A stretch of DNA of 33,306 bases from NCBI GenBank assembly GCA_023300375.1, contig JALZWO010000107.1:1-33306 (forward strand), read 5' to 3'. The DNA is from Granulosicoccus sp. GTDB lineage: Bacteria; Pseudomonadota; Gammaproteobacteria; Granulosicoccales; Granulosicoccaceae. This document shows, one piece after another, positions 8,666-18,939 of the stretch (its first letter is position 1; each line of letters opens with the position of its first letter). The notes beneath the pieces are model-generated. The model was not told the origin of the DNA. It worked only from the letters and a program-made list of their open reading frames with translations, and did no database searches. Made by a program: the position numbers and the translations under genes.

Positions 8666-9730
8666 ATGCCTCCTCAATTCTCATCATCTAAAATTGGTAG
8701 GGCGGGAAAACGACTTAGAAATGATGACACTCCACCTGATCAAAAAGAGGCTGCTCTAGATGTTTTGGCTTATTGGAGAGCTCAGCATTCAGGTCCTCTA
8801 AAAATTGCGTTAGCAGAATTAGGAACAGCCAGTGTACAGCACGATAAAAACACTCTTCTGGCGTCAAGGGAGAAACGTGCAAAATCAATAATAGATAAGC
8901 TAAAGCGCGAACGGAGTATGAATCTGACCACAATGCAAGACATCGCCGGGTGTCGAGCCATTGTTGGAGTTCAGAAAGACGCGCTGAAAGTGGCAAAATC
9001 CTTGAAAAAAAAGAAGCATATAAAACTAGTCAATAACTATATCAACTCACCGAAAAGTGATGGCTATAGAGGAATCCATTTAGTCGGAAAATTCAGCACG
9101 AAAGAATTTCAAACCCTTCAAGTTGAATTCCAAATACGCACTAATATTCAGCATGCTTGGGCTACCGCTGGCGAGATCACCGAATTATTCTCTGCAACTC
9201 CAATCAAGAATCTGCACGGTGATGCACAGTGGAAGCATTTCTACAAATTGGTAGCTGACTGTTTTGCAATCATTGACGACAAGTATATTAATAGAGATAT
9301 CAGACAAGATAGCTTCGATACGGATCAAGCTACCTACTTGCTCCGCAATAGACACGGCGCTGAGCTTGGCTCTATTGCAAAGGAGATTAGGAGGCGCTCT
9401 AAAGAACTGAAAGTCCACGATAAATTTAATGTTTTCAGAAAAACGCTTCAATTCTCAATTTTGCATGTACCACCTGGTAGCAACTATTGTGTAATTCATG
9501 CAACTGACCTTGGCACCGCTAAGCCCTCGATCAAAGTACGTATGTGCAAAGATGTTGTTTCTGCGCGAAACATCAACTTTACCATCGAGAAAAATATCAT
9601 CAACGATTCAAACGAGCTTGTTGTGATGTTGTCGGTTGGAGCAATGGCTTCTCTAGAATCCGCGTATCCAAATTATTTCGCCGATTCTGGGTATTTTTTA
9701 AAACTGCTAAAAACCATAGAAAAGATATAA
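8666..9730 (+). CDS. Orphan RelA/SpoT-domain (p)ppGpp-synthetase-like nucleotide pyrophosphokinase
   Basis: 354 residues. The RelA/SpoT synthetase domain covers about 45-175. It should transfer pyrophosphate from ATP to a 3'-OH, classically GDP/GTP to give (p)ppGpp; some small toxic members act on ATP or on the tRNA CCA end. The expected catalytic elements are visible: R68, K70, K73, K78 (SREKRAKSIIDKLKRE) for ATP, Mg-binding D92 in MQDIAGCRAIV, Y134 in SPKSDGYRGIHL (acceptor-base stacking), E154 in VEFQIRT, and H163 in IQHAWA. There is no HD hydrolase domain and no TGS/ACT regulatory domain. About 180 C-terminal residues match no domain I know. The gene is AT-rich and isolated between two operons, with weak small ORFs on both sides, typical of toxSAS or defence-type alarmone synthetases. 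The specific product is unknown. Confidence 0.82.
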   Translation: MPPQFSSSKIGRAGKRLRNDDTPPDQKEAALDVLAYWRAQHSGPLKIALAELGTASVQHDKNTLLASREKRAKSIIDKLKRERSMNLTTMQDIAGCRAIVGVQKDALKVAKSLKKKKHIKLVNNYINSPKSDGYRGIHLVGKFSTKEFQTLQVEFQIRTNIQHAWATAGEITELFSATPIKNLHGDAQWKHFYKLVADCFAIIDDKYINRDIRQDSFDTDQATYLLRNRHGAELGSIAKEIRRRSKELKVHDKFNVFRKTLQFSILHVPPGSNYCVIHATDLGTAKPSIKVRMCKDVVSARNINFTIEKNIINDSNELVVMLSVGAMASLESAYPNYFADSGYFLKLLKTIEKI

Positions 9731-10243: not shown

Positions 10244-11407
10244 ATGTTTAATGCAACAATGAAATTTGATCTGGGCGAAGAGGTGAATTCTCTCCGGGAT
10301 GTTATACATCGTTGGGCGCAAGAACGCGTCAAACCACTCGCTGCTCAGATTGATAAAGATAATGAATTTCCAGCAGAACTGTGGCAGGAAATGGGTGAGC
10401 TTGGATTACTGGGCATTACCGTACCTGATCAATATGGCGGTGCGGGCATGGGATACCTTGCCCACTCGATTGCTGTTGAGGAAATTGCACGTGCGAGTGC
10501 ATCAGTATCGCTGAGCTATGGCGCGCACTCTAACCTGTGTGTCAGTCAAATCAATTTGAACGGTACGCACGATCAAAAAGAGAAATATCTACCTGATCTG
10601 ATCTCTGGCAAGCATGTAGGTGCATTGGCCATGTCAGAGTCTGGTGCAGGATCAGATGTTGTTGGCATGAAACTCAGGGCTGAGAAGCATGATGGCTATT
10701 TCAAACTTAATGGCACGAAGTACTGGATTACCAACGGTGGCGAGGCGAATACGCTAGTGGTTTATGCGGTAACCGACCCTGATGCCGGTAGTAGAGGCTT
10801 AACCGCCTTCATCATTGAGAAAGATATGCCGGGTTTTTCGCATTCCGAGCATTTTGATAAATTAGGTATGCGCGGCTCTAACACCGTCGAGTTAGTTTTT
10901 GATGGCGTAGAGGTTCCGTTTGAGAACATCCTTGGTAAAGAAGGTAAGGGCGTAAACGTGCTCATGTCAGGTCTGGACTATGAGCGTGTTGTCTTGTCCG
11001 GGATTGGTTGCGGAATCATGGCGGGCTGCCTCGATGAAATTATGCCTTACATGGCGGAGAGGAAACAGTTTGGTCAAAGCATTGGTAACTTCCAGCTTAT
11101 GCAAGGTAAGTTGGCGGATATGTACACCAAAATGAATTCTTCTCGGGCTTACGTCTATGAGGTAGCTAAGGCGTGTGATCGTGGTGAGGTAACACGCCAA
11201 GATGCTGCTGCCTGCGTTCTTTATGCTTCTGAAGAGGCTATGGTCGTGGCACATCAGGCAGTGCAGGCCATGGGTGGTGCCGGTTTCATGAATGACAGCC
11301 CCGTAAGTCGAATTTTCCGAGATGCAAAGCTTATGGAAATTGGCGCGGGCACATCTGAAATACGTCGTATGCTAATCGGCCGAGAATTGATGGGAGCCAT
11401 GCGATAG
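10244..11407 (+). CDS. liuA: Isovaleryl-CoA dehydrogenase
   Basis: 387-residue acyl-CoA dehydrogenase, FAD-dependent, oxidising isovaleryl-CoA to 3-methylcrotonyl-CoA in leucine catabolism; electrons go to ETF. Normal length. Family motifs are the FAD/substrate stretch [32 protein letters not shown], and the C-terminal [20 protein letters not shown] ... [19 protein letters not shown]. The glutamate in [12 protein letters not shown] is at the position of the isovaleryl-CoA dehydrogenase catalytic base, which distinguishes it from most acyl-CoA dehydrogenases, where the base is near the C-terminus. First gene of a four-gene plus-strand operon whose next members are both methylcrotonyl-CoA carboxylase subunits, which confirms the substrate. 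Confidence 0.95.
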
Positions 11408-13015
11408 ATGAGTGTTATTAATTCCAAGATCTCGACAAGATCAGCAATGTTTAAGGATAACGTTGCCGCTCATGAAATTGCGATGGATGTGGTTCGAGAA
11501 GCTGAGGCAGTTTCCATAGGCGGGGGTGGGCAAAAATCGCGTGAACGGCATCAGTCGCGAGGCAAGATGTTGCCGCGAGACAGAGTGACGCATCTGCTTG
11601 ATCCGGGGTCTCCATTTTTGGAGGTTGGGATATTCGCCGCTTTCAATCTACATGACAGCGCTTGTCCTGCCGCTGGTTTAATTGCGGGCGTTGGACGAGT
11701 ATGCGGCCGCGATGTCATGGTTGTGTGTAACGATGCGACCGTTAAAGGTGGCACCTACTTTCCCATGTCAGTAAAGAAGCATTTACGAGCACAAAAAATA
11801 GCCGAAGAAAATAACTTGCCGTGTATCTACCTTGTAGATTCTGGAGGCGCTAACCTACCTAATCAGGACGAGGTGTTTGCTGACGAGAATCACTTTGGAC
11901 GCATTTTTTTTAATCAGGCAAATATGTCTGCAAAAGGTATCCCGCAAATTGCAGTTGTCATGGGATCATGCACCGCTGGTGGTGCCTATGTTCCGGCAAT
12001 GTCTGATATTTCCATTATCGTCAAAGATCAGGGCACTATCTTTCTTGCTGGTCCGCCACTGGTGAAAGCAGCGACCGGTGAAGTGGTTACCGCTGAAGCA
12101 CTGGGTGGTGCGGACGTTCACACAAGATTATCAGGTGTTGCCGATTACTTGGCTAATGATGATGATCATGCGCTGGCGATAACGCGCGAAGTGGTATCGA
12201 ATCTGAATCATACAAAACACGCCATGGTTACGCTGTGCGATGCGGAACCGCCTCTCTATGATCCAGAGGAGATATTGGGTGTAGTGCCAGCGGATCTGCG
12301 TACGCCTTACGATATCCGGGAGGTCATTGCTCGCTTGGTGGACGGCTCGCGCTTTGACGAATTTAAACAACGATACGGTACTACCCTGGTTTGTGGGTTC
12401 GCGCATGTGATGGGCATACCCGTCGGCATTATCGCCAATAACGGTGTGCTATTTTCGGAAGCAGCCGTGAAAGGTGCCCATTTTGTAGAATTGTGCTCAC
12501 AGCGAAAAACACCGCTTGTGTTTCTGCAAAACATCACAGGGTTTATGGTGGGGCAAAAATATGAGTCAGAAGGTATTGCAAAACACGGTGCAAAATTGGT
12601 TACCGCTGTTGCTACAACATCTGTCCCCAAAATAACTCTGCTGGTTGGCGGCTCTTTCGGCGCTGGCAATTATGGAATGTGTGGCCGTGCGTATTCCCCA
12701 CGGTTTCTGTGGACATGGCCTAACTCGCGTATCAGCGTTATGGGCGGTGAACAGGCGGCCGGTGTTCTTGCCACTGTGCGGCGTGATTCAATCGAGCGCC
12801 GTGGCGAATCTTGGTCGGTGGAGGAAGAGACGGCGTTTAAAAAACCCACCATTGATATGTTTGAAGAACAAAGCCATCCACTCTATGCGTCCGCTAGGCT
12901 TTGGGACGACGGCATTATAGACCCACGCAAAAGTCGCGACGTGTTAGCACTTAGCTTACGGGCAGCGCTGAATGCCCCGATCGAAGAGACCAAGTTTGGT
13001 CTCTTTAGAATGTAG
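11408..13015 (+). CDS. liuB: 3-Methylcrotonyl-CoA carboxylase, carboxyltransferase (beta) subunit
   Basis: 535 residues, the usual length. It transfers CO2 from carboxybiotin to 3-methylcrotonyl-CoA, forming 3-methylglutaconyl-CoA, in complex with the biotin-carrying alpha subunit encoded next. Carboxyltransferase features are [20 protein letters not shown] (acyl-CoA binding), [16 protein letters not shown] and the second-half oxyanion region [20 protein letters not shown]. The start codon abuts the liuA stop without a spacer, so translation is probably coupled. No frame break. Confidence 0.96.
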
Positions 13016-13023
13016 GAAGCATT

Positions 13024-15036
13024 ATGTTCAGTAAAATACTTATCGCCAATCGAGGCGAGATTGCCTGCCGAGTAATAACAACTGCACACCGGCTTGGTGT
13101 GAAAACAATTGCCATCTATTCTGATGCAGATGCGAATTCGAAGCACGTTAGCATGGCCGACGAAGCCGTTTATATCGGTGCATCACCGGTAGCTGAGAGC
13201 TACCTTCAGGCTGATCGTATTATAGCTGTAGCTCTGGCCAATGGCGCGCAAGCTATTCACCCAGGATACGGTTTTCTTTCAGAGAATCCTGGCTTTGTTC
13301 AATCGGTTGAGAAAGCAGGGCTGGTTTTCATTGGTCCTTCAGCCACGGCCATTGAAGCGATGGGGCTCAAAGATGCTGCAAAGCGATTAATGGAGAATGC
13401 CGGAGTTCCTTCAGTACCTGGATACCTCGGTGAGAGTCAGGATCTAGACGTGCTAGAACGTGAAGCTGATCGAATGGGTTACCCAGTACTCATAAAGGCG
13501 CGAGCTGGGGGCGGTGGCAAAGGCATGCGATTGGTAGAGAATCGTGAAGATTTCAAGGAGCTTTTTGAGGCTGCCAGTCGGGAGGGGGAGTCCAGCTTTG
13601 GTGACTCTGTGTGCATTGTTGAGAAATACATAACCCGCCCTCGGCATATTGAAATACAAGTGTTCGGTGATAACCATGGCAATGTTGTTCATTTGTTTGA
13701 ACGAGATTGTTCACTGCAACGACGACATCAAAAAGTGATAGAGGAGGCTCCTGCACCTGATATGCCGGTTGGTGTGCGAAAGGCAATGGGGCAGGCGGCC
13801 GTTGATGCCGCAAAAGCGATCGGTTACTCCGGCGCAGGAACCGTTGAGTTTATTGTTGATGGATCCTCGGGCTTGAGGGAGGATGGCTTCTGGTTTATGG
13901 AAATGAACACGCGCTTGCAGGTTGAGCATCCCGTATCTGAAGCCATCACGGGGCTGGATTTTGTAGAGCTACAGCTGCGAGTCGCGGCTGGCGAACCACT
14001 ACCGTTTGCACAAGAGGATCTTACGATTAATGGTTGGTCGTTTGAGGCTCGAGTTTACGCAGAAGATGTACCCAAAGGATTTCTTCCTGCCATTGGTGTG
14101 ATTGAGCATCTGAATTTCCCTGAAAACTGTTCAGATTTTGGTGCAGGGTCGGTACGAGTAGATAGCGGCGTGCGTCAAGGTGACGCCATCAGTCCATTTT
14201 ACGATCCTATGATCGCCAAGATTATCGTACACGGACCTACACGCGCATCTGCGTTGAACCTATTAACTAGAGCGCTTTTGCAAACGCATGTGGGAGGAAC
14301 CGTCACTAATATGGAGTTTCTATCTGCGCTGGCTAAACACAGCGAATTTTCAAGTGCTGACGTTGATACGGATCTTATTGCGCGAAATATTGATAGCCTT
14401 ACATCGGAGTCAGCGCCTCCTGAGAGCGTCATCGCACTTGCCGCTATTGCCTCACTCGGGTTGTTGGACAAAGAAACTGATCATTCGGTCAAGCTGTGGG
14501 ATGAGCTTTTGGGATGGTGCCATTGGTCGAGCAGTGCTTACACGTCAAACCTGGTAGCCGATGGGGCAGCTTTTAGGCAGCAGATCACTATCGTTGATCA
14601 ACATCAGTTTACAGTTGCAGGCGAGGGCACTTCGTGTGAATTGAAGATTCACCACGTATCTGGGTCTGAATTTAATGTCGAGCATAACGGCTTACAAAGC
14701 TCGGTGAATCTGGTTCTTAACAAACAGTCTGTATTTGTTTTCTACGATAGTCAGAGTTTCACTTTTGAAAGGCCTGATTATTTAAACGCACAAGCTGATG
14801 AAGCTATTGGCGGCGATGTTGTCGTAGCACCAATGCCCGGTGTAGTCACCGTGCTAAGTGCAAAAACGGGTCAAAAGGTTTTGGCTGGAGACACTCTTGC
14901 GGTGTTAGAAGCCATGAAGATGGAGCACGCACTGCAAGCACCGCGTAACGGAATTGTTGCAGGGGTACTGTGTGCGGTTGGCGATCAAGTGGTTGACGGT
15001 GATCTTTTAATTCAGTTGGACTCTGATAATGCCTGA
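13024..15036 (+). CDS. liuD: 3-Methylcrotonyl-CoA carboxylase, biotin carboxylase/BCCP (alpha) subunit
   Basis: 670 residues. An N-terminal biotin carboxylase domain (FSKILIANRGEIACRVITTA), ATP-grasp glycine-rich loop (ARAGGGGKGMRLV) and the EMNTRLQVEHPVSEAITGLD signature carboxylate biotin with bicarbonate and ATP. The C-terminal biotinyl domain carries EAMKMEH with biotin lysine K632. Between them is a BT-type linker of low conservation that docks with the beta subunit. The domain order and length are those of methylcrotonyl-/propionyl-CoA carboxylase alpha subunits; operon context fixes methylcrotonyl. It starts eight bases after liuB and overlaps liuE by eight bases. Confidence 0.96.
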   Translation: MFSKILIANRGEIACRVITTAHRLGVKTIAIYSDADANSKHVSMADEAVYIGASPVAESYLQADRIIAVALANGAQAIHPGYGFLSENPGFVQSVEKAGLVFIGPSATAIEAMGLKDAAKRLMENAGVPSVPGYLGESQDLDVLEREADRMGYPVLIKARAGGGGKGMRLVENREDFKELFEAASREGESSFGDSVCIVEKYITRPRHIEIQVFGDNHGNVVHLFERDCSLQRRHQKVIEEAPAPDMPVGVRKAMGQAAVDAAKAIGYSGAGTVEFIVDGSSGLREDGFWFMEMNTRLQVEHPVSEAITGLDFVELQLRVAAGEPLPFAQEDLTINGWSFEARVYAEDVPKGFLPAIGVIEHLNFPENCSDFGAGSVRVDSGVRQGDAISPFYDPMIAKIIVHGPTRASALNLLTRALLQTHVGGTVTNMEFLSALAKHSEFSSADVDTDLIARNIDSLTSESAPPESVIALAAIASLGLLDKETDHSVKLWDELLGWCHWSSSAYTSNLVADGAAFRQQITIVDQHQFTVAGEGTSCELKIHHVSGSEFNVEHNGLQSSVNLVLNKQSVFVFYDSQSFTFERPDYLNAQADEAIGGDVVVAPMPGVVTVLSAKTGQKVLAGDTLAVLEAMKMEHALQAPRNGIVAGVLCAVGDQVVDGDLLIQLDSDNA

Positions 15037-15886
15037 GAAAATTACAATTGTTGAAATGAGTCCACGCGATGGGCTACAAAATGAAAAAAGTCCTATTTCT
15101 ACAGCGAATAAAATCGCGCTGGTTGACCAGCTGTCTGATTGTGGATTTACCAGGATAGAGGTAAGCAGTTTCGTCAGTCCAAAACGGATACCTCAGCTGG
15201 CTGATGCGATAGACGTCATGTCAGGAATTACTCGCAACCACTCAGTGAGCTATGCTGTATTAACGCCAAATTTGCGCGGATTCCAAACCGCCATTAAAGT
15301 TAAGGCAGATGAAGTAGCCATATTTACATCGGCATCAGAGGGCTTCTGTCGGGAAAACATCAACTGTAGTATTGATGAGAGCCTGGTGCGATTTGCTCCG
15401 GTCTTGAATGCGGCCAGAGCGTTGAATATTCCTGTTCGTGGCTACGTCTCCTGTGTTACCGACTGTCCTTACGATGGGCCCACGCAGCCGTCGCAAGTTG
15501 CAGATGTATCAGCCAAGCTTATTGAGTTGGGTTGTTTTGAGGTGAGTCTGGGAGACACCTTGGGCGTTGGTATGCCGGATGCCGTTGCTGAGATGTTAAG
15601 TGCGGTAACAGCGCGAGTGTCTCCATCGTTACTTGCGGGACATTTCCACGATACCAATAACAATGCGTTGAATAACATCAGGGTTAGCCTAGAAGCTGGG
15701 TTGAAGGTGTTTGATTCTTCCGCAGGTGGTCTTGGAGGATGTCCGTATGCACCCGGAGCAAAGGGTAATGTAGCGACAGAGCAGGTTGTTGAGTTTCTGC
15801 ATAGCGAAGGATATGCAACAGGTATAGATGTTGGGCGGCTAAATAGCGCTGCTCAGTTCGCTAAGAGTTTAAGGTCAGCATCATGA
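15029..15886 (+). CDS. liuE: Hydroxymethylglutaryl-CoA lyase
   Basis: 285 residues, a TIM-barrel lyase splitting HMG-CoA into acetyl-CoA and acetoacetate, the last step of leucine catabolism. Visible are the N-terminal SPRDGLQNEKSPI, the metal-binding HFHDTNNNALNN (two histidines and an Asp/Asn set), and the signature loop GGLGGCPYAPGAKGNVATE with the catalytic cysteine. The start lies within the liuD 3' end (8-base overlap). Its TGA overlaps the ATG of the truncated liuC remnant in an ATGA, showing that the operon formerly continued. Confidence 0.95.
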   Translation: MPEKITIVEMSPRDGLQNEKSPISTANKIALVDQLSDCGFTRIEVSSFVSPKRIPQLADAIDVMSGITRNHSVSYAVLTPNLRGFQTAIKVKADEVAIFTSASEGFCRENINCSIDESLVRFAPVLNAARALNIPVRGYVSCVTDCPYDGPTQPSQVADVSAKLIELGCFEVSLGDTLGVGMPDAVAEMLSAVTARVSPSLLAGHFHDTNNNALNNIRVSLEAGLKVFDSSAGGLGGCPYAPGAKGNVATEQVVEFLHSEGYATGIDVGRLNSAAQFAKSLRSAS

Positions 15887-15963
15887 AGAAATACGAAACC
15901 TTGTCTTTGACAGTTGATGGGCGTGGGGTCGCGTCTAGGCGAAGGCGCAACACGACAGGTTGA
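15883..15963 (+). pseudogene. liuC: 5' stub of methylglutaconyl-CoA hydratase
   Basis: An ATG in a 4-base ATGA overlap with the liuE stop opens MKKYETLSLTVDGRGVAS, then Arg-rich unrelated residues and a stop at 15961-15963 (26 residues in total). The first 18 residues fit the N-terminal pattern of LiuC-type enoyl-CoA hydratases (Y-x-TL-x-L-x-(V/I)D-x-RGVA, normally followed by TLTLNRP). Homology ends at about 15936. The position, coupling and pattern point to a deletion that removed nearly all of liuC, the one liu enzyme otherwise missing. The match is short, so a search is needed to be certain; the alternative is an accidental mini-ORF. Confidence 0.6.
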
Positions 15964-15967
15964 AAAA

Positions 15968-16003
15968 CGTTAGGCCGAGCCTTCAAGGCTGAACGACCTA
16001 ACG
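15968..16003. terminator. Nested hairpin downstream of the liu operon
   Basis: CGTTAGG (15968-15974) pairs with CCTAACG (15997-16003), and inside them AGCCTT (15978-15983) with AAGGCT (15985-15990). No strong T-run follows. It probably stabilises or ends the liu transcript. Confidence 0.5.
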
Positions 16004-16145
16004 AGAAACGGGTGACATTGTCATCATTTTTTGACACGCAGAGAGGCCACTGCAGCGATTTTTGAAAACACTGAAGTGTTCTAAAACCGAACCCGGTTAC
16101 ATTCCATTTTTGGATGCAAAACGCGAGTAGCCGTGCGGAGAGTGT

Positions 16146-16763
16146 TTAAACCTTAGCAGGCGCTGACATCGAACTTTGCCCACGATCTGGGTTGGGCTCC
16201 ACAGGTGCATTAACAATCGCAGCTAACTTGTCAGAACCGCCCACATACTTACCATCGATCCAAATTTGTGGAACAGTAATAGGCGTCTTCGGGCCAACAA
16301 TGGGCTTAACTCGCGCAAGCATCTCGTATAGATCTAGCGGGTTGGTTATGACATCTCGATATTCATAGTCAATACCTGCTGTCTCCAAATACGTTTTAGC
16401 ATTCACACAGTGTGGGCAACTAGCCTTTCCAAACACGTGGTTGCCGGAAATAGAAGTGCGCTTGGCATGATGCTCTATGACCGCTTGAGTTAGCATACCG
16501 CGATTCAAAGCACCACCTTGTCCAACAATTTTTCCTTCAACTAATACAATAGGCGCATGCCAACCACCTTTTAGCAATGGCTTATACCATTCGGACAGCC
16601 AATCTCTGGTTTCGAGTTCAACTTCAATACCTTGCAACTCGTTTTGCATTGTATCTTTGATGACGTCTGAGGTTAGCGCGCACTCGCCACAGGGGATAGA
16701 GACTTTGAATGGTCCGAATGAGCCTGCCCATCGGTACACTAGAATTTTGATTGGATCTGCCAT
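16146..16763 (-). CDS. Two-domain thioredoxin-fold protein with C-terminal glutaredoxin
   Basis: 205 residues. The C-terminal half (about 108-185) is a glutaredoxin: VFGKASCPHCVNAKTYLETA with active-site CPHC (116-119), the cis-proline motif TVPQIWIDGKYVGGSDKL (163-180), which binds glutathione. The N-terminal half (about 5-100) has CGEC at 25-28, a WHAPIVLVEGKIVGQGGALN stretch with a cis-Pro-like AP and a second glycine turn, and looks like a second thioredoxin-fold domain. So both halves have a CxxC pair. A disulfide reductase role in the cytoplasm is likely, but partners are unknown. It has no export signal. It lies 106 bases after the xylanase gene on the same strand. Confidence 0.8.
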   Translation of the reverse strand: MADPIKILVYRWAGSFGPFKVSIPCGECALTSDVIKDTMQNELQGIEVELETRDWLSEWYKPLLKGGWHAPIVLVEGKIVGQGGALNRGMLTQAVIEHHAKRTSISGNHVFGKASCPHCVNAKTYLETAGIDYEYRDVITNPLDLYEMLARVKPIVGPKTPITVPQIWIDGKYVGGSDKLAAIVNAPVEPNPDRGQSSMSAPAKV

Positions 16764-16869: not shown

Positions 16870-18939
16870 TCACTCACCACTGAGTCCGCTGCGCAAAGCG
16901 TCGTAGCTAGGTTTCACCTGATGATTTTCATCCAGATACAACGGCGAGGTAAATCGTCTGAACGAATAGCGGTCGGTAAACCCCCAGGTTTGTAGTACGG
17001 TGCACCGAGGTTGGGCAAGGCAAGTTTCTGCCACACGTTCATACACTTCTGCTTGTACCTCTTCTGTATCGTCGCCCACAATGGCTACATCCAACTCGGT
17101 AACATGTATGTCTAGCCCACGCGCCGCAATCTCTGCCATGTTGGCGGCGAATTCGTCGTACTGGTCGTAGCTAGAAAAGACATGCATTTGAAACCCTATT
17201 GCATCAACGGGCACTTCTCGTTCTAGTAGTCTATCTATAAGAGACAAAAAGTCGTCAAATTTACGACCTGCAAAGCCGATGTCAAATTCATTCAATACAA
17301 GTGTGGCGTTAGGGGCTAGCTCACGTGCCTGAAGGAAAGCGGTATCGATATAGCCCTCTCCCATGGCTTCAAACCAGATGCTGTCGCGCAAGCCATCTTC
17401 TTCACTGATCGGCTCATTAACAACGTCCCAGTAGTCCACTCTGTCAGCGTATCGTGTCATTACCCGCGTGATGTATTCACGCATGTGGACTTCTCGGTCT
17501 TCGGGTTCAGTCTGTTCAACCCACGAGGGCAGGCTGGTATACCAGATTAAGGTGTGGCCGCGCACCTCCATGTCGTAGAATTCTGCAAAATTTAGGAGTG
17601 TGTCCATGTCAGCCCATTCGAAGCGCCCCGGCAGCGGATTAATGGCATCCCATTTCATTGAGCTCTCAGGGCTCATCACACCGAACTCACTGCCAGCGAA
17701 GGCTTCATACACACCGCCATCAGCTTGCAGGTAGAACACCGGCGACACCGCACTGCCAAATGCCACGCCACTGCCTGCAACTGCATTGCGCAAGCGCTCG
17801 CCGCCGCGTTCGAACGCGTCGGCGTCGAGTACCTCAAGGGTGATCTGATTAAGCCCCGTGAGTAATGGGTCGTCTGCATCCCGAGTGAGAATATCAATAA
17901 CGAGTGTGCCTGCTGAATCAGGAACCACTTGCAGGATCTGAATCTCAGGTGTTCGCGGGTCTGGTGTCAGGATTGCACTCGGGGGAGGGTTTTGCAATTC
18001 GATAGTGGGGACAGTGCCATTTCTATCCGTACCGATCAAGAAAATAGATACCGGATCGCCCACGCGCACAGTGTAGTCGGCCACAGGTTCAATACCGGGT
18101 GGCACGTTGGGTATACCGGCAAGGTTGCTCGGCTCGTCAACCGCAATGAGCACCATTTGCGAACTTCGGTAGTTGCTGTTATCCGGGTCAATGGCCACAG
18201 CTGTGAACTCTGTAATGCCTACATCACCTTGCAGTGGTGTCCATTCAAGCGTTCTTGTGCCATCACGGTTGTCGTCAAAGCTCGCGCCTGGGGGTAGCTC
18301 TTGGCCGAACATCCCAGGTAGATCCCCTTCAGGATCAACAGGGTCAAAGAGTAACTGCAGCGTTTGCCCAGCTTCTATTCGAACATTGGCTAGCCCTTCA
18401 AAGAAGGGAGGCGCATTGGTTTCGGGATCCACATCGTTGGGTACTGTGATAACCGCGTCTGGAAGGCCGGCGTCGAAGTCCTCTTGGGTAAATTCGTTTG
18501 CCTCTTTAGCTTTGCTAATTCGTGGGCCAGTATCACGCAGAGCTTGGAATTGTGTGATCGTGTGTAATTCAGAATCGAAGGCTACCGGCTCATCATCGGC
18601 CGACGGGCCTTCAGTAAGCGGTGGGTTAGGCAGTTCAGCCAAGCCAACAGGCGCACCGTCAACAGGCGCACCGTCAAGAGGTGCTTCGTCAAGAGGTGCT
18701 CCGTCAAGAGGTGCTTCGTCAAGAGGTGCTTCGTCAAGAGGTGCTTCGTCAAGAGGTGCTTCGTCAAGAGGTGCCTCGTCAAGAGGTGCCTCGTCTATCG
18801 GTGGGCTCGGTGTTCCAAGCGCTGATCCGTCATTGTTGGCTACGTCGTCGTCGCTACCGCCATCTCCTCCTCCACCACAGGCGCTTAAGCCAAGTGTCAT
18901 GAGCAGTAGTGCACAAAGATTGGTCCATTTCGAATTCAT
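16870..18939 (-). CDS. GH10 endo-1,4-beta-xylanase-like lipoprotein with Pro/Asp repeat linker
   Basis: 689 residues, predicted surface or outer-membrane lipoprotein. Signal: MNSKWTNLCALLLMTLGLSA with lipobox LSAC, then GGGG. Residues about 45-105 are a low-complexity linker with ten DEAPL-type pentapeptides; about 175-375 contain at least two Ig/cadherin-like beta domains (NVRIEAGQTLQLLF, DPEGDLPG; DYTVRVGDPVSIFLIGTDRN). From about 385 to the end is a glycoside hydrolase family 10 domain: SSMKWDAINPLPGRFEWADM, RGHTLIWY, acid/base E509 in DVVNEP, nucleophile E615 in HVTELDV, and TWGFTDRYSF. All key residues are present, so it should be active on xylan or a related beta-1,4-glycan. No other polysaccharide-degrading gene is nearby. 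Confidence 0.93.
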   Translation of the reverse strand: MNSKWTNLCALLLMTLGLSACGGGGDGGSDDDVANNDGSALGTPSPPIDEAPLDEAPLDEAPLDEAPLDEAPLDEAPLDGAPLDEAPLDGAPVDGAPVGLAELPNPPLTEGPSADDEPVAFDSELHTITQFQALRDTGPRISKAKEANEFTQEDFDAGLPDAVITVPNDVDPETNAPPFFEGLANVRIEAGQTLQLLFDPVDPEGDLPGMFGQELPPGASFDDNRDGTRTLEWTPLQGDVGITEFTAVAIDPDNSNYRSSQMVLIAVDEPSNLAGIPNVPPGIEPVADYTVRVGDPVSIFLIGTDRNGTVPTIELQNPPPSAILTPDPRTPEIQILQVVPDSAGTLVIDILTRDADDPLLTGLNQITLEVLDADAFERGGERLRNAVAGSGVAFGSAVSPVFYLQADGGVYEAFAGSEFGVMSPESSMKWDAINPLPGRFEWADMDTLLNFAEFYDMEVRGHTLIWYTSLPSWVEQTEPEDREVHMREYITRVMTRYADRVDYWDVVNEPISEEDGLRDSIWFEAMGEGYIDTAFLQARELAPNATLVLNEFDIGFAGRKFDDFLSLIDRLLEREVPVDAIGFQMHVFSSYDQYDEFAANMAEIAARGLDIHVTELDVAIVGDDTEEVQAEVYERVAETCLAQPRCTVLQTWGFTDRYSFRRFTSPLYLDENHQVKPSYDALRSGLSGE
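18646..18795. repeat. Ten 15-base in-frame tandem repeats within the xylanase gene
   Basis: Ten contiguous 15-base units, consensus AAGAGGTGCTTCGTC on the plus strand, encode DEAPL, DGAPL or DGAPV on the minus strand. Units 3 and 5-8 are identical; units 4, 9 and 10 differ by single bases and units 1-2 (AACAGGCGCACCGTC) are the most diverged. Near-identity marks recent slippage expansion; because units are multiples of three, number changes keep the reading frame and alter only linker length. Confidence 0.95.

Follow-up and report, generated by a model that had tools for sequence, protein, structure and literature searches.

A probable liuC pseudogene at the end of a liu operon in Granulosicoccus

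The end of the liu operon of a Granulosicoccus sp. genome raises a question. Behind liuE lies a frame of only 26 codons: is this what remains of liuC, and if so, is the degradation of leucine blocked? A sequence-only reading had proposed that almost all of liuC is deleted from an otherwise intact operon, and that the pathway either depends on another hydratase or stops at methylglutaconyl-CoA. The window, meaning the whole stretch of DNA analysed, is one entire contig (G000:C107) of 33,306 bases, from a MAG of 4.58 Mb in 247 contigs that is 97.5% complete. A search of titles and the starts of abstracts found no paper title on this locus.

The operon and the two pieces behind liuE

The operon lies on the plus strand. 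Its first gene, liuA (10244..11407), encodes an isovaleryl-CoA dehydrogenase-like acyl-CoA dehydrogenase, which matches the NCBIfam acyl-CoA dehydrogenase family below the cut-offs and is 82% identical to its counterpart in the operon of genome G003. Then come liuB (11408..13015) and liuD (13024..15036), for the carboxyltransferase and biotin-carrying subunits of methylcrotonyl-CoA carboxylase. They match a carboxyltransferase family and biotin carboxylase and biotin carrier models, respectively, again below cut-offs. The hydroxymethylglutaryl-CoA lyase gene liuE (15029..15886) matches NCBIfam NF004283 with 431 bits (cut-off 246). All four are intact open frames, as the sequence-only reading had held. 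Comparison with the nearest relative, G008, gives dN/dS values of 0.044 for liuA, 0.018 for liuB and 0.069 for liuD. Values of 0.02-0.07 in these genes indicate that the remainder of the operon is kept by selection.

The 26-codon frame (MKKYETLSLTVDGRGVASRRRRNTTG) occupies 15883-15963, and its coordinates, its translation and its ATGA overlap with the liuE stop are exactly as first read. The ATG begins one base ahead of the liuE stop codon (15884-15886), which places an alpha-type LiuC N-terminus directly behind liuE. This likeness was measured with a position-specific matrix from 71 alpha-type LiuC proteins. Its source was the best 80 of 554 LiuC loci plus those of G002, G009 and G021, which made 81 distinct loci after 2 repeats were dropped; a motif filter removed 10 more. 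The first piece of the remnant (15883..15936, plus strand; start codon and codons 1-18, MKKYETLSLTVDGRGVAS) contains KYETLSLTVDGRGVAS, which scores 35.4 bits at profile column 2, that is, at the N-terminus. No other of the 34,231 stop-free 16-residue windows in the six frames of the contig scores as high, so the proposal that the first 18 residues fit LiuC N-termini is borne out.

The rest of the frame had been taken for unrelated Arg-rich sequence. However, it holds LiuC read out of frame. RLGEGATRQV (15932..15961, plus strand, other frame) scores 24.5 bits at columns 154-163 of 261, higher than any other of 43,158 ten-residue windows in the contig, although the window lengths of 16 and 10 were picked after the pieces had been seen. 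The remnant therefore has two pieces. The motif R-L/M-G-E-G-x-x-R-x-V, which is internal to alpha-type LiuC, is thus present at 15932-15961 but out of frame with the start. LGEGATRQV resembles alpha-type proteins (MGEGRARQV, LGEGAARRV) and not the gamma-type gene described below (ISSRAARRY). Beyond it, the same frame reads EKR and a TAG stop (15962..15973, plus strand), a tail not assignable to LiuC. With 8-residue windows the stub leads narrowly (20.4 against 19.7 bits at position 8839, an unrelated site), and the best 4 contig matches listed do not include piece 2. In HMMER the separate pieces reach just 3.0 and 0.3 bits; even so, they are the top two of the six frames, in that order, and both lie where expected, with piece 2 matching model positions 153-163.

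The readings of the two pieces share 15932-15936, and the deletion junction must lie about there. Measured against the profile, the remnant lacks 136 columns internally (~0.41 kb) and 98 beyond piece 2 (~0.29 kb at the 3' end). No trace of columns 18-153 or 164-261 was located in the contig windows. Further LiuC pieces were sought in 15962-16146, but no window there stood out: the highest rank is 111 of 39,870, for a 12-residue window on the minus strand, and the best listed for 8-residue windows on the plus strand is 534 of 46,856. No complete crotonase domain lies in one open frame here; the frame stops after 26 codons. The 267-nt region is single in the genome and has no match among plasmids, so there is no sign of a repeated mobile element at the stub.

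Just downstream are two hairpins (15968..16031, plus strand), with a T run behind the second; they are a possible terminator of the liu transcript. The first (15968-16003) is strong (CGTTAGG...CCTAACG). The fold of 15955-16035 has -23.7 kcal/mol (z -2.79; 4 of 200 shuffles equally good), and one terminator-like site was found (16011-16025), which is no excess because shuffles average 0.6. The first hairpin was also considered as an integron attC site, a candidate dropped since its arm order looks opposite to the usual attC pattern. At gathering scores, Rfam matched nothing in the window. Farther downstream, on the minus strand at 16870-18939, is a protein with tandem EAPLDEAPLD repeats that is 86-87% identical in G008; one domain, by eye, presumably resembles a GH10 xylanase.

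The place of liuC in other genomes

An A-B-D-E-C order had been called unusual. The best 80 of 554 LiuC loci contradict this. liuE lies directly before liuC in 71 of the 80. The order B-D-E-C could be read in 55 of them and A-B-D-E-C in 37, although contig ends or the 7-kb flank truncate many of these loci and the sample, being the best 80, is not random. The record titles are mostly Rhodobacteraceae or other Alphaproteobacteria. Of the 71 loci with liuE directly before liuC, 51 have an ATG in frame with liuC no more than 5 nt from the liuE stop, which makes the overlap of the stub with liuE ordinary.

Relatives that keep an intact hydratase after liuE were also found. The crotonase-family frame of G002, a member of the same genus, starts at an ATGA overlap with liuE, although its true start may be 21 codons inward; the conserved part opens TWETLKVASDARGVVTVTLNRPDKRNAL 22 codons in. 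In G009 a short gap separates liuE from the hydratase gene behind it. The G002 protein scores 383 bits with NCBIfam NF005675/PRK07468 (cut-off 350) and the G009 protein, at 346, is just under. In G021 the hydratase gene precedes liuA and is not near the liuE that was found, and its protein deviates from the R-L/M-G-E-G-x-x-R-x-V motif at one place. Other genomes have no such gene. G003 has the order A-B-D-E and no hydratase match on its 14-kb contig, including behind liuE. A possible liuC trace at the end of its liuE, SGVATVPLNVSE, ranks first of 21,283 twelve-residue windows but is only 0.6 bits ahead of the next and overlaps real liuE codons. G004 has B-D and no E or C match behind liuD, on a short contig of a genome that is 74% complete; the gene behind liuD looks by eye like a GntR-type regulator. 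Two liuABD clusters (L135 and L142) are present in G023.

In G008 the neighbourhood is as in the window, with liuA 98%, liuB 99%, liuD 96% and the downstream glutaredoxin-like gene 97% identical. However, the operon end that is eroded in the window is eroded further here. Only the first ~27 nt of liuE and a 118-nt internal piece survive (window 15420-15537, 89% identical), at L127:7870-8010 (G008:C108) between liuD and the glutaredoxin-like gene. G008 lacks the remainder of liuE as well as the stub region as far as 16142, and the gap holds no prominent LiuC trace (best rank 615 of 23,043). A further HMG-CoA lyase-like gene of G008, 37% identical, lies on another contig, C24. Synonymous divergence between the two genomes is 0.18-0.29 for liuA, liuB and liuD, 0.42-0.45 for two downstream genes and 1.21 for the unlinked gamma-type liuC described below, possibly because of a recent between-species exchange of the liu region, or of codon bias.

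These comparisons bear on whether the stub is a remnant at all. The stub combines homologous pieces with a lost frame, and relatives keep an intact liuC there, as expected of a pseudogene made by deletion. What if no hydratase ever stood behind liuE in this lineage and the likeness is due to chance? The low HMMER scores of the separate pieces would fit, and so would G003, with the same A-B-D-E order and no hydratase match behind liuE. However, the two matches are each the best in the contig at their own lengths, adjacent, in order and as far from liuE as expected, and G002 and G009 carry an intact liuC at just this place. Chance is thus a very improbable source of the likeness. Equally hard to credit is that the frame encodes a genuine small protein or a leader peptide at the operon end, which the start codon overlapping the liuE stop might suggest. 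The second half of its sequence is LiuC read out of frame, the frame is absent in G008 and has no other copy in the genome, and the short frame behind liuE of G003 reads differently.

A more serious concern is the assembly. The species might have an intact liuC, with strain variants collapsed or mis-joined in the MAG contig, and the window, being that entire contig, comes without an independent copy. Against this, no intact alpha-type liuC was found elsewhere in a genome of such completeness, and G008, a separate assembly, also lacks liuC here and has the same gene downstream. An artefact would also leave unexplained the parallel lack of liuC matches around the G003 operon and behind liuD of G004. 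Such an error is unlikely, though less so than the other two alternatives. We therefore consider it highly probable that the stub is a pseudogene of an alpha-type liuC, formerly the last gene of liuABDEC, made by deletion and now functionless, its loss tolerated through a second hydratase.

A second hydratase at an unlinked locus

The enoyl-CoA hydratase family has 11 matches in the genome, and the search for a second hydratase of the LiuC clade that the sequence-only reading had suggested was successful, with one qualification: the gene belongs to another LiuC clade. This gamma-type gene lies at G000:C219:23136-23918 (L055:9137-9919), unlinked to the liu operon, and is the only match to itself in the genome at E <= 1e-40. 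It is 47% identical to a hydratase encoded between liuB and liuD in G037 and 38% identical to the alpha-type enzyme of G002. In G027, G028, G030 and G037 a homolog follows the liuB match at a distance of 29-55 nt (spacing from coordinates), and in G035 one precedes liuD by ~37 nt. The enzyme is below the cut-off of every NCBIfam model listed, with PRK05674 giving the best score.

In a quick tree of 46 rows, alpha-type and gamma-type LiuC form two groups (SH-aLRT 94 and 89). Together they are split from four paralogs of the same genome with 97 SH-aLRT, the branches being long. Those four were taken from the ten other hydratases of the genome (six further matches and one short row were left out), and because of the long branches their order is meaningless. 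The C219 gene thus groups with hydratases encoded inside liu operons, apart from its own paralogs. Proteins of G010, G011, G015, G020 and G022 (40-43% identical) form a sub-branch on the gamma side, apart from other genus members. One Granulosicoccaceae row, L200, lies among alphaproteobacterial rows and not with G002, G009, G021 and L174.

In the stretch L055:8458-9922 of the same genome, the gene directly before gamma-type liuC encodes what we take, by eye, to be a DsbA-type 2-hydroxychromene-2-carboxylate isomerase. Its homolog adjoins gamma-type liuC in all six other genus genomes fetched that have one, and in the liu operon of G037 it lies directly before liuB.

It is helpful to set the two types side by side. 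Alpha-type LiuC (PRK07468/NF005675) is last in liuABDEC of many Rhodobacteraceae and relatives, and the stub has in common with it the place behind liuE, the ATGA overlap, the N-terminal pattern and the R-L/M-G-E-G motif. However, it keeps only ~28 of some 260 codons, in two frames, from which no enzyme is possible. Gamma-type LiuC, found beside liuB or liuD in other Gammaproteobacteria, serves the same pathway step by gene context and is intact at C219. It is a separate clade, 37-42% identical to the alpha type, here unlinked to the operon, and not the parent of the stub. The C219 gene is predicted to hydrate methylglutaconyl-CoA in place of the lost liuC. As for the choice between another hydratase and a block, a candidate for the former has been found, and the latter is unlikely because the genome keeps a hydratase with homologs inside gammaproteobacterial liu operons. 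Given this predicted enzyme, the leucine pathway is probably complete.

Loss of liuC and its distribution in the genus

How might the loss have come about? The starting state would have been a liuABDEC operon with an alpha-type liuC, for 3-methylglutaconyl-CoA hydratase, in last place. With a gamma-type LiuC at an unlinked locus of the same genome, the constraint on the operon copy would have been lost, and most likely this second hydratase is what made it redundant. An internal deletion of ~136 codons, which did not keep the frame, joined column 17 to column 154. The 3' part past column 163 has been lost as well, perhaps as a second event. Both losses, and the presence and clade of the second LiuC, can be read directly at the sequence level. 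We infer the rest, namely that there were two separate deletions, the order of events and the physiological replacement. The stub itself is most likely without function.

The two types are nearly complementary in the genus. Among its 24 genomes, this one included, 17 have a gamma-type match and three (G002, G009 and G021) an intact alpha type, all three without the gamma type; none has both intact. The present genome fits, its gamma type being intact and its alpha type a remnant, and G008 has a gamma-type LiuC 80% identical to that of G000. However, the complementarity is imperfect because four genomes have neither type at the thresholds used: G004 (74% complete), G013 (87%), G005 (90%) and G018 (100%), the last also without a close liuB. 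The chance that three alpha-type genomes all fall among the seven without the gamma type is 35/2024 (~0.02), a figure that is only indicative because the 24 genomes are related and not independent. A tentative extension, which we think somewhat doubtful, is that an alpha-type liuE-liuC module competes across the genus with other genes for the same steps, and that the operon is trimmed stepwise from its 3' end wherever another copy is present (C in the present genome, E and C in G008). The module was perhaps acquired from Alphaproteobacteria.

In bacteria, deletion leaves pseudogenes where one of two genes serving a single step has become redundant. The stub is like these in being truncated and frameshifted, with neighbours under purifying selection and a counterpart elsewhere. 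There is no essential difference, and here the operon end is eroded to differing extents in sister genomes. The observation first made from the sequence is confirmed and its interpretation partly supported: this looks like ordinary gene loss and not a broken pathway. It is a small but clear case in which a differently related gene at an unlinked locus would have taken the place of a pathway gene whose old copy can still be recognised. Caution is also called for: one broken gene in an operon is no ground for calling a pathway blocked.
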